The notes below the pieces were generated by a model. That model made no database searches, had not been told where the DNA came from, and worked only from the letters and a program-made list of their open reading frames with translations. DNA of 64,000 nt from Propionispora vibrioides (lineage in GTDB: Bacteria; Bacillota; Negativicutes; Propionisporales; Propionisporaceae). Numbering within the stretch: position 1 is the first letter of the stretch; each line of letters begins with the position of its first letter. The DNA lies in assembly GCF_900110485.1 (NCBI RefSeq), contig NZ_FODY01000005.1, forward strand, positions 139,093 through 203,092, in the 5' to 3' direction. Below are positions 6,063-64,000 of this stretch, in pieces. The position numbers were made by a program, and so were the translations under genes.

Positions 6063-6386
6063 TCAGGTTTTTATATCAATCGTATGCCCCCGCACGGGAT
6101 CATCGGCAAGCAGCTCATCGTCTTCCGGTTGGCCGCTCCCGGGCGCGCCGCCACGGGAAGAGTGCCCGCCGCTTGGCTGTTTTTGCCCTCCCCGCTCACT
6201 AACTCTGCCGCCTTCGCTTTTCGGTGTATGTTGAATTTGCTGTTGCCGAGCAGTAGATAGTTTCTGCCATTCCGCTGCCGATTGTTCCGATGCAACCACA
6301 TTTTGCTGATTGATGTTGTTCTGATTTTTGGCAACTTCCGTCGTGCGCGGAATCAGTACTTGCAGGTCCATAGGCCGTATGTTCAC
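6063..6386 (-). CDS. Small low-complexity protein of the flagellar cluster, function unknown
   Basis: A 107-residue hydrophilic protein with a neat N-terminus (VNIRPMDLQVLIPRTTEVAK) and a disordered Gln/Ser/Gly/Pro-rich remainder ending in VRGHTIDIKT. The GTG at 6386 is chosen because GAGGTGGGG lies just upstream; an in-frame GTG at 6395 would sit on that site. It falls between fapA and the DUF6115 gene. The conserved-looking first 20 residues and last ten could be short binding motifs, but I do not recognise a family. Confidence 0.65.
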   Translation of the reverse strand: MNIRPMDLQVLIPRTTEVAKNQNNINQQNVVASEQSAAEWQKLSTARQQQIQHTPKSEGGRVSERGGQKQPSGGHSSRGGAPGSGQPEDDELLADDPVRGHTIDIKT

Positions 6387-54320: not shown

Positions 54321-54884
54321 TTAATATTTAATGTTGCCGTCAAACAAATTTCCGTTGATATCCAGACTGTCGGTATATTGCCACATGAACCCTTGTAAAT
54401 CATCAGCACTTCCCCACTGAGCATTCCATACGGCACATCCTAAGCCTCGCCAATCGACGTAATTGCATAACCAGAAGTAGGATGCATATACACCACAATC
54501 CAGGCCGATATTTTCCAGGAATGCCTTGCATATTGCTGTGATCTCAGTTGGGTCAAAGGCGAATCCATTTCGCTGTTTATAGCCGTCCGCATCCTCCATA
54601 TCAAAAAACACTGGAAGTTCCAGCAATTGCCCCGTGCTGTCGATCACGCTCCGGCAGTTAGTCGCCTCCTGGATGGCATCATCTTCGTTCAGCGCATAGG
54701 AGTAGTGGTAGGCACCAACCTGTAAACCGGCTGCTTTCGCTCCCGCTACATTCTGTGCAAACATACTGTCCTCAGAGTTCTTACCATAAGAGCTGCGTAG
54801 CATAGCAAACTCAATGCCGGCATCTTTCACTGCTTGCCAATCTACCATTCCATTGTGCACGCTTACATCAATACCTCGAATCAT
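54321..54884 (-). CDS. GH25 lysozyme/endolysin
   Basis: A 187-residue single-domain GH25 muramidase. The fold opens IRGIDVSVHNGMVDWQAVKD, and the catalytic pair lies in PVFFDMEDADG (D95, E97). The domain ends with FMWQYTDS. There is no signal peptide, as in phage endolysins that need a holin, and no cell-wall-binding repeats follow. ATG at 54884 with AGAGGTGG ahead. The module remnant lies 11 nt beyond its stop codon. Confidence 0.9.
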   Translation of the reverse strand: MIRGIDVSVHNGMVDWQAVKDAGIEFAMLRSSYGKNSEDSMFAQNVAGAKAAGLQVGAYHYSYALNEDDAIQEATNCRSVIDSTGQLLELPVFFDMEDADGYKQRNGFAFDPTEITAICKAFLENIGLDCGVYASYFWLCNYVDWRGLGCAVWNAQWGSADDLQGFMWQYTDSLDINGNLFDGNIKY

Positions 54885-54941
54885 TTTTCCCACCTCTCTT
54901 TTTATTATATTAATTTGTTTTTTCCCAAAAGGTGAATTAAA

Positions 54942-57031: not shown

Positions 57032-58465
57032 CTAGCTGCAACATATCCGATTACGGCCCAATGCCTTCGCTTTATACAAAGCATTATCGGCTCTAGCCAG
57101 ACTCTCCTCAAATGTCCTATCGTTGTCGAGGACCTCGCTGATACCAAAGCTGGCGGTAACCGTTAGTGTACTTACATTCTCCAATAAATACTGGTATGTT
57201 TCTATGGCCTGCCGCAACCTTTCAGCAATTTCAGCTGCTTCTCTTAGCGATATTTCCGGAAATACGATAGCAAATTCTTCTCCTCCGTATCGCCCAAAGA
57301 TTTCTCTCCCCCTTAACTCATTGGTTACTACTTTGGCAGTCCCTTGTAAAACCCGATCACCAATATTGTGCCCATACTTGTCATTCACTTGTTTAAAATG
57401 GTCAAGATCAAAAATTATGACACTCATATGAGTTTTATAAAGCAAACAATGTTCAAATTCCTTATTACCCAGATCCATAATATAGCGACGATTCCAAATT
57501 CCTGTTAAATAATCTACCGTTGCTAACTGTCTCAGTGTTTCTTCCATATTTTTGCGGTCAGTAACATCATTAATCGTGATCATCAGGGCTTCACTACCAA
57601 ACCAAATAACCTTTACGACAAAAAGCAGTATCCAACATACCTTGCCGTTAACATCGTAAAATTGCATTTCTTTATCCATCGCACATCCGTTTTTCTCTAT
57701 TTCGTCCAAGGTTGCCATCCACTCATCCCGATTTTGGTGATAATCGGCAAAAGTACTTCCGATCAATTCCTCCTGTGACACCTTAAAAAGTGCTGCTGCT
57801 CTTAGATTTCCATACAAAATAGTCCCATTCATCTCTCTTCTAGTAACAAGCATTGGAAAAGGTGCGATCTCTACCATTGAACGAAACTGCTCCTCGCTTC
57901 GCTGCAAATCGCTTTCTTGCCGTCGATTGTGCAACACGATTGCGTATACTTCCCCCAAACGGGTTATTTCCTTAAGATCATCTACCGTATAATCACGTAC
58001 TGAATTGGCAAGTGCAATCTGTCCTAAGATTTCATCTCCAAACATTATAGGTACCGACAGGAAATTTTTCAGCGGTACATGACCGGATGGCAAACCTACT
58101 GATGCCGCATGAGATGAAGGATTGTTAGTAAAAAAACTCTCCCGGACGTTAAGAGAATATCCCCATAGGCTGCTATAAAGTTTATGGGGCCCTTCAGGCA
58201 AAGAATATAAGGCAGCATTAATGGTACAGCCTTCATCCCGCATCTTAGTCAGTGTATTACTGATATGGGCACCGGTCTTTTCATCAATCGAAGAAACAAA
58301 ACCATGCTGACTTTCCGTCAGCCACCGTGCTTTATCTAAAACACTCTGATACATCTCGTCAAAAGAAACCGTTGAAGCAATGATAGCTGACAACAGCTCA
58401 GCAATGACGACATGCAGCCTACTCGCCCGCTCCGATCTATCATCTGGCCTGGTTGTGACCTTCAT
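57032..58465 (-). CDS. GAF-PAS-GGDEF diguanylate cyclase
   Basis: A 477-residue cytoplasmic protein. GAF domain about 15-185 (PLKNFLSVPIMFGDEILGQI), PAS about 190-310 (PFPMLVTRREMNGTILYGN), and a GGDEF domain with the active signature GRYGGEEFAIVF (GGEEF at 394-398) and DLDHFKQVNDKYGH for metal and substrate. The inhibitory I-site position reads RGRE instead of RxxD, so product inhibition may be lost. It makes c-di-GMP, which the PilZ protein at 14.1 kb may sense. GGAGGAGG precedes the ATG. Confidence 0.95.
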   Translation of the reverse strand: MKVTTRPDDRSERASRLHVVIAELLSAIIASTVSFDEMYQSVLDKARWLTESQHGFVSSIDEKTGAHISNTLTKMRDEGCTINAALYSLPEGPHKLYSSLWGYSLNVRESFFTNNPSSHAASVGLPSGHVPLKNFLSVPIMFGDEILGQIALANSVRDYTVDDLKEITRLGEVYAIVLHNRRQESDLQRSEEQFRSMVEIAPFPMLVTRREMNGTILYGNLRAAALFKVSQEELIGSTFADYHQNRDEWMATLDEIEKNGCAMDKEMQFYDVNGKVCWILLFVVKVIWFGSEALMITINDVTDRKNMEETLRQLATVDYLTGIWNRRYIMDLGNKEFEHCLLYKTHMSVIIFDLDHFKQVNDKYGHNIGDRVLQGTAKVVTNELRGREIFGRYGGEEFAIVFPEISLREAAEIAERLRQAIETYQYLLENVSTLTVTASFGISEVLDNDRTFEESLARADNALYKAKALGRNRICCS

Positions 58466-58649
58466 TCTAAATCCTCCTCCGTCGGTGGATACACAAATAC
58501 TAGCGTAATTTTATTGGTCCAAATAATGTGTATTAATCCATAATATTTAACAAAAACGTTATTCAACAGTCACTCATAAAACCCTTTCATAAACAAACGA
58601 AAATAACCTTTTATACCGTTACCTAATAATACGACTAGTACTGAATTCG

Positions 58650-58702
58650 AACAAAGAAGTTCCTGCTAAATTATGTAAAAATTTAGCAGGAACTTCTTTG
58701 TT
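58650..58702 (+). repeat. CTCCTGC hairpin family, copy C
   Basis: AACAAAGAAGTTCCTGCTAA and its exact inverse TTAGCAGGAACTTCTTTGTT form a perfect stem of more than 20 bp around a short A/T loop. The following CAGAGGAAGAAAGTATA matches the tails of copies A and B. Confidence 0.65.
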
Positions 58703-58781
58703 CAGAGGAAGAAAGTATAAGGCTTAATCATTTTCCTACAATCATTGAACCATACGCGATCTCCTGTATTAGGAGCTTTAT

Positions 58782-60308: not shown

Positions 60309-60506
60309 ATGACAGTAAAAAAGGATTTAGAAAAGGCATTGGCCGCTGCTGAGTCGGCAAAAGGAACTTATGCAACTTTCGCGGCATCAACCGATGAGCA
60401 AAACGCACAGCAAATGTTCCAACAAATGTCACAGGACATGGATCGTCACATCGCTAATATAAATAGTCGCATTAGTTCCACGGCTGAAAGTCAATTAAAT
60501 AATTAA
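60309..60506 (+). CDS. DUF1657 family protein
   Basis: A 65-residue helical protein (DLEKALAAAESAKGTYATFA, QQMFQQMSQDMDRHI) of the DUF1657 type, found in spore-associated gene sets of Bacillus and Clostridia. GGAGG precedes the ATG by 8 nt. Upstream GCATAAATTT.. and CAATTATA might be a sporulation-type promoter, but the match is loose. Confidence 0.8.
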   Translation: MTVKKDLEKALAAAESAKGTYATFAASTDEQNAQQMFQQMSQDMDRHIANINSRISSTAESQLNN

Positions 60507-60561: not shown

Positions 60562-60604
60562 ATAATCCCTCCATTCTGGCGATCAACCAAAATGGAGGGA
60601 TTAT
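60562..60604 (-). terminator. GGAGGGATT hairpin, copy 3
   Basis: ATAATCCCTCCATT and AATGGAGGGATTAT, a 14-bp perfect stem, directly after the stop of the LamG/FN3 gene on the minus strand. Confidence 0.8.
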
Positions 60605-60606
60605 CT

Positions 60607-62049
60607 TTACTCTGCCGGCAGAGGTATTACCTTAAAGCTAATGATCTTTTCAAAGGCCAAATATTCCTTGCTGCCATCAATACTATCATCGAAGGTATAA
60701 CAAGTATTTCCCGTACCAACCGCCCGATCATACCAACTAATAAAATTATCTACAACTGTCTGGGTAACTTTATACTGACGTTCGCTAGAATCGTTCATTG
60801 TAATTCGCAGTAAAGCATTAATAGGCGCTACTGGCATAGCAGATGCTTCATTAGAATTCGCGCTCTCGCTGGTGCCACCTAGTGCCGTTACAACATAATA
60901 ATACGTCGTGCCATTGGTTACCGTGGTATCCATATAGTTGTTCGTGGCTACGTTGCTGGCAATTATCGTATACGGATCACCTGCCGTAGTTGAGCGTTTA
61001 ACATTGTAGCCGGAAGCATTGGTCACTGCAGTCCATGAAAGCGCCACTTGAGAGTTGCCGGCCGTTGCAGTTAAGTTTAAGGGTGCACTGATAATAGGAG
61101 TAGCCGAAGCCTCATTCGAGTTAGCGCTTTCACCACTAGTATTGATAGCAGTCACCACATAATAATACGTCGTGCCGTTTACTACATTAGTATCCATATA
61201 GGAGGTACTTGATACGGTGGTTGCAATTGTTTCATAAGGGCCGCCTGCCGTGATAGACCGTTTTAAGTTATAGCCGGTTGCGCCGTTGACTGTATCCCAA
61301 TTGAGGGTTACTTGCGCATCGCCTGTGGTAACGATTAGATTTATTGGTGCATTAGGGGCTACAACAGTTCCCGGAGGTATAAAGTTTGATGTCCATCGGG
61401 CTGTATTAGAGATTCTAAGCTCATCTATATACCCATGAAAAGCTGATCCTGCATTCAATTTACCGGTAGATGTATTATAGTTACCGATATACCCGTATGG
61501 TTTAGGAACATCAATACTGGCATTTGATGTTTGTGTAGCTACCAATTTTCCGTCTAAAAACAAATAAAAACTTTGTTGGCTTCTAACTACAGCAATATGA
61601 TGCCATACATTGACTGTAATTAGCGTTGGGTAAGTTAAATGTATGTTTCTAACCCCCGAACTATCATAGTTATCTAGGCAAATGCCAAACGGGCCAACCG
61701 AATCTTGTTCTGTCCTATTCACAGCCAAGGCCCATCCACTATGCCCAGTATAACCATCAGCGGAAAATGTATAGTTACCAATTACAGGCATTCCGTATTG
61801 CGTTGATGACTGTGTAATATAAATAAAGCATTCAATGGTAAAATCACCAGTGCCTAATGCAAAATTCTTATTAGAATCCGCAAAACTTAGTACTCCATTA
61901 TTAAAAAACAAACTACTGGTTCCAACCTGTTTGGGGTCGCTACTCACGCTTACATTCCCGTTTGATGTCCATATTTTCCCTGTCTCATCTTTAATCCCAT
62001 CATCAAAATGAAGCAAAGATACCGTATACTGATCCACTTCATAAGCCAT
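60607..62049 (-). CDS. LamG-like/FN3 surface or fibre protein with FKVIPLPAE module
   Basis: A 480-residue protein without signal peptide. An N-terminal concanavalin/LamG-like domain (about 10-215: FTIECFIYIT, WHHIAVVRSQQSFYLFLDGK, GYIDELRISNTARW) is followed by two fibronectin type III repeats (from about 227 and 318, each with TYYYVVTA and SANSNEASA). The last 70 residues are the C-terminal module (ALLRITMNDSSERQYKV to FKVIPLPAE). The FN3 copies are also direct repeats in the DNA. Likely a carbohydrate-binding fibre part, phage-type or surface. ATG at 62049, AAGGA ahead. Confidence 0.8.
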   Translation of the reverse strand: MAYEVDQYTVSLLHFDDGIKDETGKIWTSNGNVSVSSDPKQVGTSSLFFNNGVLSFADSNKNFALGTGDFTIECFIYITQSSTQYGMPVIGNYTFSADGYTGHSGWALAVNRTEQDSVGPFGICLDNYDSSGVRNIHLTYPTLITVNVWHHIAVVRSQQSFYLFLDGKLVATQTSNASIDVPKPYGYIGNYNTSTGKLNAGSAFHGYIDELRISNTARWTSNFIPPGTVVAPNAPINLIVTTGDAQVTLNWDTVNGATGYNLKRSITAGGPYETIATTVSSTSYMDTNVVNGTTYYYVVTAINTSGESANSNEASATPIISAPLNLTATAGNSQVALSWTAVTNASGYNVKRSTTAGDPYTIIASNVATNNYMDTTVTNGTTYYYVVTALGGTSESANSNEASAMPVAPINALLRITMNDSSERQYKVTQTVVDNFISWYDRAVGTGNTCYTFDDSIDGSKEYLAFEKIISFKVIPLPAE

Positions 62050-62076
62050 TTCACATTCCTTCATTTATTTTTATTT

Positions 62077-62153
62077 GAAAGCCAACATAACTAAGGAACT
62101 CTTATGTTTCACCGTGTATTTCCTGTATGTCGGCTCTCATGAGTATACATTCA
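62077..62153 (-). promoter_or_regulatory. Cassette leader L1: sigma-D-like promoter and inverted repeat
   Basis: On the minus strand TGAA (62150-62153), 15 nt, GCCGACAT (62127-62134): 3/4 and 7/8 matches to the SigD consensus TAAA-N15-GCCGATAT. The -10 box also lies in an inverted repeat (62077-62089 with 62126-62138). Homologous to L2 at 63564-63639. Confidence 0.55.
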
Positions 62154-62231
62154 TTAGCTAGTTATTTTTAAACTACTGTCTTTACCTTTCATTCTTTATC
62201 CGTATATGAAATCATAATTTTGTATAAGCAA

Positions 62232-62269
62232 AATCCCTCCACCCTAGCATCAATCAGAATAGAGGGATT
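62232..62269 (-). terminator. GGAGGGATT hairpin, copy 4
   Basis: AATCCCTC and GAGGGATT with inner CT/AG pairs, 5 bp past the stop codon of the frameshifted module gene, T-poor on the minus strand (TTTGC). Confidence 0.65.
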
Positions 62270-62273
62270 AATT

Positions 62274-62568
62274 TTACTCTGCCGGTAGCGGAATCACTTC
62301 AAAGCTGATGATCTTCTCGTAGAATAAATACTCCTTACTCCCCTGCGTACTCTTATCAAACACGTAGCACGAGTTGCTAGTTCCGATTGCACCAAGTAAT
62401 AAAATCATCTGCAACTGTCTGAGTAACTTTATACTCACGTTCGCTGGAATCATTCATTGTGATGCAGAGCAGGACATTACCATCGCTTGTAGCATCCGGA
62501 TTATAGGGTTTTAATTCACCGTTTTCATCTATATCATCACGCTCCTGCCGTTCTTGGTCAGTTAGCAT
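62274..62568 (-). pseudogene. FKVIPLPAE module gene, frameshifted
   Basis: From ATG at 62568 the frame reads MLTDQERQERDDIDENGELK, PYNPDATSDGNVLLCITMND, SSEREYKVTQTVADDFITWC then NRN-stop. In the next frame it resumes IGTSNSCYVFDKSTQGSKEY and ends FYEKIISFEVIPLPAE-stop. Compared with the intact copies a few bases are lost at GCAATCGGAAC. It lies downstream of the tail fibre gene, whose own C-terminus lacks the module. Confidence 0.75.
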
Positions 62569-62583
62569 AATTACTAGGCATAG

Positions 62584-62612
62584 AAAAAGGAGCAGAGATT
62601 GCTCTCCACTCC
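62584..62612 (-). terminator. Terminator after the tail-collar fibre gene
   Basis: GGAGtgGAGA, loop GCAA, TCTCtgCTCC followed by TTTTTC on the minus strand: a stem of 10 pairs with two internal mismatches. Confidence 0.8.
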
Positions 62613-62703
62613 CTCAAATGTGGAACTTCATCCATGTACCACCGCTGTAGGATATATGGTAGAAGGCTAGGCACACCAGAAGAACCATTTCCTAGAGACG
62701 ATT

Positions 62704-63525
62704 CTATTTTGCTCTTATGAGGTAATAGACTGATTTGTTGATGGGACGATTTTCCACTGCCGTTGGAACTGCAAGAGAGGCATCAAAGCTAAAGCCTGTC
62801 ATATGAGAAAATATACCACTACTTTCCGCAGTAGAGTAAGTATTCGAATATATACCCTGAAATGGACCTGTAATAACCTTTCCAGTATCTATTTCTCCGA
62901 ATGCTTGCCTATCTGCCGCCGAAGAAGAAGCATCAATTTTACCCACTATATTTCGAATAGCATCACCCTGGGCTACGCCCAAAGCGGCAGAATTTCCTCC
63001 TACTCCTCGAAGAAAATATCCTCTATAATCTGGGACATAGCTACCGACAACAGCAGCCAATTCCGGATAACCTTCCGTAGATTGTCCATTACATTCTAAC
63101 CATTTTCTTGCATCATCACCACCAGGTAATGTCGAAGATGGCCATGCAATAATAGTTCCTACAGGCACACCAGAACAAGGAATATTAATATCCTTCGTAC
63201 CATCAAAGGCTACACCGTTGATATTGCGCGCAGTTTCCAACTTAGTAGCGGTTGCAGAATTTCCAGTACATTGAGCAGCGGTGTCTGCACTAAGTACATC
63301 TACGCTAATAGCCACATCAGCAGAACCATCAAAAATTGCACTACCTGTAGCGTCCCCCTGTAATGCAATGGTTCTTGGGGTAGATAATTTGGCAGCAGAA
63401 TCAGCGATTACAGCTGTTGCAGCATCAACTATCTTGTCCTCTTTAAGAGCTCTGAAGTTCTCCCTGATATCCGCCGTTGATACAGTTACATTAACATCCG
63501 CTGGTAAACTTGAATTATACGACAT
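62704..63525 (-). CDS. Phage-type tail fibre protein with tail-collar domain
   Basis: A 273-residue protein. N-terminal part with fibre-type repeats (TPRTIALQGDATGSAIFDGS, LETARNINGVAFDGTKDI). Then the tail-collar domain opening PVGTIIAWPSSTLPGGDDAR, with KWLECNGQ and PDYRGYFLRGVGG, and a C-terminal trimer-type end (NRPINKSVYYLIRAK). Such proteins form receptor-binding fibres of phages and tailocins. ATG at 63525 with GGGGGGG 7 nt upstream. Expressed from leader L2. Confidence 0.88.
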   Translation of the reverse strand: MSYNSSLPADVNVTVSTADIRENFRALKEDKIVDAATAVIADSAAKLSTPRTIALQGDATGSAIFDGSADVAISVDVLSADTAAQCTGNSATATKLETARNINGVAFDGTKDINIPCSGVPVGTIIAWPSSTLPGGDDARKWLECNGQSTEGYPELAAVVGSYVPDYRGYFLRGVGGNSAALGVAQGDAIRNIVGKIDASSSAADRQAFGEIDTGKVITGPFQGIYSNTYSTAESSGIFSHMTGFSFDASLAVPTAVENRPINKSVYYLIRAK

Positions 63526-63563
63526 GTAAATTCCCCCCCTATAATAATATAAATATTTATTTG

Positions 63564-63639
63564 GAAACCCGACATAGCCAAGGACCTCTTTTTTCAAATA
63601 TGTGTTTCCTGTATGTCGGCTTTCACTAAGGTACATTCA
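63564..63639 (-). promoter_or_regulatory. Cassette leader L2: sigma-D-like promoter and inverted repeat
   Basis: TGAA (63636-63639), 15 nt, GCCGACAT (63613-63620) on the minus strand, with the inverted repeat 63564-63576 / 63612-63624 over the -10 box. Both boxes and spacing are identical to L1. Confidence 0.55.
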
Positions 63640-63720
63640 ACAGCCAATAAATTTTAAACCATCAATTTACCTTTCATTCTTTATTTGTACATGAAGTCGT
63701 CATTTCGTATAAGGTATAAA

Positions 63721-63760
63721 AAATCCCTCCACCCTGACAAATGACCAGAATGGAGGGATT
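63721..63760 (-). terminator. GGAGGGATT hairpin, copy 5
   Basis: AAATCCCTCC..CTG / CAG..GGAGGGATT with TTTTTTATACC on the minus-strand side, right after the stop of the partial gene at the window end. Confidence 0.8.
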
Positions 63761-63765
63761 AACTT

Positions 63766-64000
63766 TTACTCTGCCGACAGCGGTATTACCTTAAAGCTAA
63801 TGATCTTTTCAAAGGACAAGTATTCCTTGCTGCTATCGACAATATCATTTACTGAGTAACATGAAATACCTGTACCAATAGTACGAATGTACCAATTAAC
63901 AAATCCATCAATTTCCGTCTTATCCAGCCTGTACTCCCGCTCACTGGAATCAATCATAGTGACACGCAATAAGGCTTTACCGGAAGAAGGAGGGTTTTCT
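63766..64000 (-). CDS. C-terminal module of a further cassette gene, truncated by the window edge
   Basis: The frame is open to the last base. The visible 77 residues begin ENPPSSGKALLRVTMIDSSE and end EKIISFKVIPLSAE-stop: a third copy of the module, intact in frame. An in-frame TTG at 63969 could suggest a short protein, but the frame clearly continues upstream through a Pro/Ser linker, as in the LamG/FN3 protein. The N-terminal part lies outside the window. Confidence 0.8.
   Translation of the reverse strand, partial: ENPPSSGKALLRVTMIDSSEREYRLDKTEIDGFVNWYIRTIGTGISCYSVNDIVDSSKEYLSFEKIISFKVIPLSAE

Follow-up and report, generated by a model that had tools for sequence, protein, structure and literature searches.

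In this study, we analysed a stretch of 64,000 nucleotides (the window) from the 4.43 Mb genome of Propionispora vibrioides (Negativicutes; contig C5, positions 139093-203092), which ends in an array of cassettes whose proteins share a C-terminal module of 70 residues and whose upstream leaders share two short sequence boxes and a hairpin. Our results make it fairly probable that these units are prophage-derived, moron-like cassettes that are read by a sigma factor of the Xpf or SigO kind, are expressed together with lysis genes and release carbohydrate-binding proteins. In each unit, the box pair would act as the promoter, the hairpin would lie near the expected 5' end of the mRNA, and behind it come a strong ribosome site, a single gene and a terminator-like hairpin. 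The leader, which was incidental in a preliminary description of this DNA, turned out to be the more informative part.

Cassettes of the window

The units are recognised by their conserved boxes and terminator-like hairpins, and in relatives also by their prophage context. The preliminary description reported three module copies, and these were located on the minus strand at 60607-60819, 62274-62480 and 63766-63978. The hairpin that it saw after each copy was also found, as inverted repeats beginning 4-5 nucleotides past each stop; two of them score as terminators, and the third has a poor T-tract. The two leaders, which had been called near-identical, are alike (78% identity over 59 nucleotides), and covariance model R1 matches both. 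The module had further been placed at the end of unrelated or truncated open reading frames (ORFs). The heads of copies 1 and 3 are in fact related, both being LamG and FN3; copy 2 is disrupted, and the window edge truncates the gene of copy 3. A tail-collar fibre had been taken for one of the heads, which proved mistaken: the collar ORF has its own stop at 62704, ruling out a fusion of the collar gene to the module, and the head of copy 2 is of the CBM type. The features are as follows.

60607-62064, minus strand: cassette 1, LamG, two FN3 domains and the C-terminal module; ORF of 485 residues, likely start (MAYEV) at 62049
About 60607-60819, minus strand: module copy 1, intact (60610-60819 in the feature table)
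60563-60604, minus strand: inverted repeat 3' of cassette 1, terminator-like with a weak T-tract; fails terminator scoring
62073-62173, minus strand: leader of cassette 1; GTTTAA at 62168-62173, 15 variable bases, GAATGTA at 62146-62152, then the conserved hairpin
62232-62269, minus strand: terminator 3' of copy 2; scores as a terminator
62274-62568, minus strand: copy 2, frameshifted 3' remnant of a CBM-head cassette, including the module
62704-63525, minus strand: tail-collar fibre gene (MSYNSSLPADVN...), with its own stop and without the module
63560-63659, minus strand: leader of the collar gene; GTTTAA at 63654-63659, GAATGTA at 63632-63638, then the hairpin
63722-63760, minus strand: terminator 3' of copy 3; scores as a terminator
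63766-63999, minus strand: copy 3, module and linker of a LamG-FN3-module gene of 388 residues that runs past the window edge (L009, 11858-13024)
56617-56766, minus strand: cassette scar, a terminator and the last module codons fused to the upstream part of a leader; GTTTAA retained, GAATGTA gone
54321-54893, minus strand: GH25 lysozyme, an endolysin of prophage type; cassettes follow a homologue in viral contig L022 and sister genome G002 (L026)

The DNA of the three module copies is 60-81% identical over 97-156 nucleotides, and the other full copies of the same genome match copy 1 at E values of 1e-14 to 1e-27, far beyond chance. Copy 2 is broken by a TAG/frameshift between the ITW and GTG motifs, and a trace of its CBM-type head, DIDENGELKPYNP, is 87% identical over 39 nucleotides to locus L024. 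The longer listed ORF of the collar gene begins at 63636, within the leader. Another LamG cassette and a second collar gene lie just outside the window, and the single further cassette of the genome lies beside glmS on contig C15.

Leader boxes and the sigma operon

The boxes GTTTAA and GAATGTA were invariant in ten aligned leaders, where they are separated by a variable spacer of 15 bases and followed by the hairpin. Among 61 distinct leaders, the exact GTTTAA was retained in 51 and GAATGT in 57, the spacer was 15 bases long in 55 of the 57 scored, and 26 of 57 have a stop in the sigma reading frame and keep the boxes. The covariance model detected leaders in 22 of the 150 Negativicutes genomes scanned, with as many as 14 in a single genome, and they are present in genomes where the module search gave no match (G008 and G026). 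The genes behind leaders that lack the module, named by eye, encode collar fibres, coiled-coil fibres, a beta-helix-like protein and RCC1 repeats. Since the leader occurs in genomes without a module match and ahead of other fibre-type genes, it is, as judged from these matches, the most widely shared part, rather than the module.

A search with the two-box motif gave 7, 5 and 3 matches in the three genomes of the genus and none with the reversed control. Of the seven sites in the P. vibrioides genome, six are cassette leaders, and the seventh lies where a sigma gene ends, ahead of DUF1659. A scan of viral contigs with the boxes alone returned mostly chance matches and one leader-like hit. We ruled out a sporulation sigma promoter because the other leaders keep GTTTAA-N15-GAATGTA but show no conservation of the ATA/CATA-like stretch upstream. 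A known riboswitch or RNA family was ruled out as well, as nothing in the whole window matched Rfam at the gathering score and nothing relevant appeared at E values up to 5.

In the P. vibrioides genome, a sigma-70-like gene, the only member of its family there, carries the boxes at its end and is followed by DUF1659 and DUF2922; at the orthologous loci of the sister species, YvrJ (PF12841) also follows. TIGR02937 was above its cut-off in 5/5 tested sigma proteins, which places them in the sigma-70 family, and regions 2 and 4 lie in one chain, with the Pfam models of both slightly below cut-off (shortened query). DUF1659 was present in 97 of 120 sampled Negativicutes genomes. Exact boxes were found at 18 of the 30 top-scoring DUF1659 loci of the class and 12 of 13 box positions at 5 more, all with a spacer of 15. 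At most DUF1659 loci the boxes overlap the final sigma codons; several sigma genes, however, stop short of the boxes, whose conservation there cannot be put down to codons. We observed that the DUF1659 ORF of the host sigma operon in P. vibrioides (C4:141927-142141) is apparently frameshifted, which it is not in the sister species.

Shorter sigma genes of the same family are borne by prophages and adjoin cassettes (n = 10), and in 9 of them the boxes start at most 75 nucleotides from the stop. The second box and the first arm of the hairpin together code for the C-terminus of some of these prophage sigma proteins (RMYISESxYTG). A peptide resembling this sequence can still be read in leaders, such as that of the collar gene of the window, which suggests that the leaders descend from the 3' end of a sigma gene.

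Most likely, the boxes serve as promoter for a small factor of the sigma-70 family, because the host sigma gene sits directly upstream of DUF1659-DUF2922-YvrJ with the boxes at or just past its 3' end, and the prophage sigma copies abut cassettes in the same way. The sigma factor would bind the boxes and switch on the genes that follow its own 3' end, and it would act in trans on the cassettes and the prophage lysis genes. The same boxes, without the hairpin, stand ahead of several prophage lysis modules (L029, L031, L041, L053, L054, L059, L131 and L167), which makes joint activation of cassettes and lysis genes probable. A transcript that starts a few bases past GAATGTA would carry the hairpin at its very start and may be protected by it. 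In locus L082 (reverse strand, past position 6335), IS3-type transposase-like genes separate a leader from its presumed cassette gene.

C-terminal module and exchangeable heads

With profiles built from the module copies, the module was detected in 20 of the 300 Negativicutes genomes searched and in 16 of the 398 Bacillota genomes (the P. vibrioides genome counted in both), with 7 matches in one sister genome and 11 in another Negativicutes genome. The preliminary description knew of no family with this C-terminus. This holds for Pfam, which gave no credible match among 40 modules, but PHROG 10059, annotated as of unknown function, covers the module: its C-terminal segment was matched by P0001 (E 1.9e-7, the value for copy 3 of the window; positions 270-338 of 345) and P0002 (E 3.5e-4). 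The same description had weighed its view against a well-characterised domain of ordinary prophages and a module occurring once per genome; the module does occur in prophages, yet in several copies per genome and without matching a described domain. Two tandem C-terminal modules in one protein were seen in L049 (889-2280), L086 (6618-7694) and L087 (16977-18137).

The proposed modular array of a constant C-terminal tag with exchangeable heads is borne out, since LamG, CBM/CE2-N-like, SPRY, kelch and RCC1 heads occur and heads differ in the sister species. The Negativicutes proteins carry LamG, SPRY and other heads, among them a domain that begins with MATVG; elsewhere in Bacillota, it is kelch, RCC1, SPRY and CBM-like proteins that end in the module (kelch and RCC1 heads named by eye from sequence). 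The MATVG head was modelled (predicted local distance difference test, pLDDT, 89) as a CBM/CE2-N-like jelly roll, with Foldseek E values down to 3.5e-6. Among protein pairs whose modules are at least 70% identical, the head class differed in 33 of 78 according to a crude text classifier.

At the glmS-side locus, P. vibrioides and its sister species (G000 and G001) are mostly 94-97% identical upstream as far as the hairpin of the leader and 91% identical from FN3 through the module to the terminator, and the heads between, LamG in the former and MATVG in the latter, are not alignable (36-56%). Within the P. vibrioides genome, the head of this locus finds its match in an array cassette (75-95% identity). 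The array itself is flanked in both species by the same genes, for a small secreted protein and an amidase. One cassette pair in it shares module DNA at 93-97% and FN3 at 72-90% and does not share the heads. At another array position, with the leader and upstream flank 89% alike, one species has a collar gene and the other a CBM cassette. Heads thus differ at three matching positions of the two sister species where leader or FN3-module DNA is largely alike, which supports head exchange between related bacteria. The heads would be swapped by recombination between the leader and the FN3-module sequence.

By a simple hydrophobicity heuristic, a signal peptide was found in 0 of 62 module proteins of Negativicutes and in 18 of 23 of other Bacillota. 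Cassette proteins made alongside lysis enzymes would leave the cell by lysis and would need no signal peptide. We presume that each consists of a carbohydrate-binding-type head, usually an FN3 linker, and a small C-terminal beta-barrel that would hold or assemble the head on a partner, be it the virion, the envelope or its own copies. The barrel was predicted by AlphaFold (pLDDT 86) with five strands and one helix; a sequence search found no solved relatives of the module, and a fold search gave no significant match in the PDB or a viral library.

The partner bears on what the cassettes are for. It is possible, though we would not favour it, that the module serves in envelope anchoring or oligomerisation and that the cassettes act in lysogenic conversion, their lectin-like products coating sibling cells or spores. 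The C-terminal placement is that of cell-surface anchors, and there are secreted carriers in other Bacillota, tandem kelch arrays (L067) included. The folds nearest to the predicted module are Rv3208A, DUF903 and Hfq, and Rv3208A was solved as octamers and hexadecamers; however, the matches are not significant (best Foldseek E 0.07, none at or below 0.001; VIA Z 3 to 6.5). This explanation is compatible with lysis-linked release under the sigma factor, and both can hold.

We regard it as rather unlikely that the module is a virion docking domain and that the proteins are alternative tail fibres or decorations, attached by the barrel and displaying their heads N-terminally. In viral contigs the cassettes directly follow tail, baseplate and lysis genes, they have leaders in common with tail-collar fibre genes, and the PHROGs matched by LamG heads have baseplate and tail proteins among their members. 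Ordinary tail fibres attach to the virion by the N-terminus. In the cassette proteins the orientation is reversed, with a constant C-terminal part and variable N-terminal heads, which is not the arrangement of an ordinary tail fibre. In Brevibacillus phages, moreover, the module is carried by a solitary kelch gene near the integrase, with a signal-peptide-like N-terminus and on the strand opposite to the tail genes, and most carriers outside Negativicutes appear to be secreted.

Several neighbouring features were also noted. A small Arg/His/Glu-rich protein (MQIGxGxxVxEASP...), probably secreted, is encoded next to cassette loci or in their vicinity in each of the three Propionispora genomes (L009 15816-16166; L010 10251-10562; L024 4404-4733; L026 15588-16061); no Pfam match was found in the two tested. 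A DUF1657 gene lies on the plus strand at 60309-60506, between the amidase and the cassette array. A perfect 24-bp inverted repeat with a 7-nucleotide loop (58649-58703) lies just upstream of a GAF-PAS-GGDEF gene (57032-58465). In L054 and L081, a holin-amidase-coiled-coil-cassette unit is tandemly duplicated in one prophage.

Alternative explanations and known systems

The frameshifted copy, the scar and the result that no phage head or baseplate genes were recognised among the window ORFs would fit ordinary decaying prophage debris, with repeats kept only through recent duplication. We consider this unlikely, because long open cassettes, boxes, hairpin and modules are conserved over many genera and cassettes are retained at two loci in the sister species. 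It is less likely still that the leader works chiefly in recombination, or as an RNA that senses a ligand, to move or regulate the cassettes, instead of being a sigma-specific promoter: the hairpin is long and conserved with some covariation, one head-exchange breakpoint falls inside it and Rfam has no match, but at sigma operons and lysis modules conservation extends to the boxes and not to the hairpin, and the fixed 15-base spacer of variable sequence is promoter-like.

Several points weigh against sigma-controlled cassettes released by lysis. The leaders could be passive copies of the sigma 3' end. Part of the box conservation in host sigma genes coincides with RLK and GMY codons, so clean evidence comes only from copies with non-coding boxes. 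The hairpin values (88% paired; covariation score 0.201 against 0.166 when shuffled and at most 0.084 when slid) derive from an alignment fitted to a model that already held the structure, which biases the pair counts towards the hairpin. The reversed control of the motif also gives some matches in AT-rich genomes of the class, and the genus comparison comprises only three genomes. With its phage lost, copy 2 disrupted and one unit reduced to a scar, the array in the window may be decaying. Outside Negativicutes, most proteins that end in the module have signal peptides, and thus lysis release is not its general route.

If the proposed control is true, a phage regulator spreads by carrying its promoter within its own 3' end. 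We offer with considerable doubt a broader proposal, in which the Negativicutes sigma factor with its core operon DUF1659-DUF2922-YvrJ would control a lysis-and-release regulon of prophage lysis modules and carbohydrate-binding cassette arrays, whose heads would move by recombination from one chromosomal locus to another; this regulon would be partly adopted by the host and with a promoter copied from the sigma 3' end. No published function of this operon was found in open-literature searches, nor any assigned role for DUF1659, DUF2922 or YvrJ, and the link of sigma gene, operon, promoter, lysis genes and cassettes makes their function directly testable. The leader model can also serve as a marker for finding exchangeable binding proteins, and the module is an undescribed C-terminal domain common to prophage and mostly secreted proteins across Bacillota.

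Compared with known proteins, the module is shared by gp45 of Brevibacillus phage Jimmer1, a kelch protein of PHROG 10059 named 'galactose oxidase' (31% identity). It differs from the cassettes in its kelch head, its signal-peptide-like N-terminus, a GPFxSR variant of the module and its position as a solitary gene near the integrase. The likeness to the small beta-barrels of Rv3208A, DUF903 and Hfq concerns the predicted fold only, and no sequence relation was found.

Xpf, the PBSX positive control factor of Bacillus subtilis, is a small prophage-linked protein with sigma2 and sigma4 regions (PMC10141391). The sigma factor described here is also prophage-linked, a likeness that goes by the published description of Xpf; here, however, the boxes lie in the sigma gene's own 3' end and relatives are also host-encoded. 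As regards control of a phage late operon, the boxes were seen only ahead of lysis modules. SigO-RsoA (YvrI-YvrHa) of B. subtilis is an alternative sigma factor that transcribes the yvrJ operon and its own operon (PMC8103513). The link to YvrJ is common to both systems, with PF12841 and DUF2922 downstream of the sigma gene here. On the other hand, SigO-RsoA consists of two proteins, while in the present factor regions 2 and 4 lie in one chain and DUF1659 and DUF2922 adjoin; going by this chain structure, it is not SigO-RsoA itself. SigN (ZpdN) of plasmid pBS32 is a mobile-element sigma factor that activates its own expression, from promoters of the form TTTACGTTT...GATATAA (Table 2, PMC6751061). 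Its promoters differ from the boxes found here, and it has no fibre cassettes.

Morons are likewise single prophage genes with their own promoter-like and terminator-like signals. Classical morons depend on the housekeeping sigma factor. In the cassettes, by contrast, the signal matches a dedicated sigma operon, the units form arrays and their heads are exchanged. Independence from the lytic programme, as in morons, is argued against by the boxes that cassettes have in common with lysis modules. Taken together, the units look like morons, from which their putative alternative sigma promoter and their arrays of exchangeable heads set them apart.

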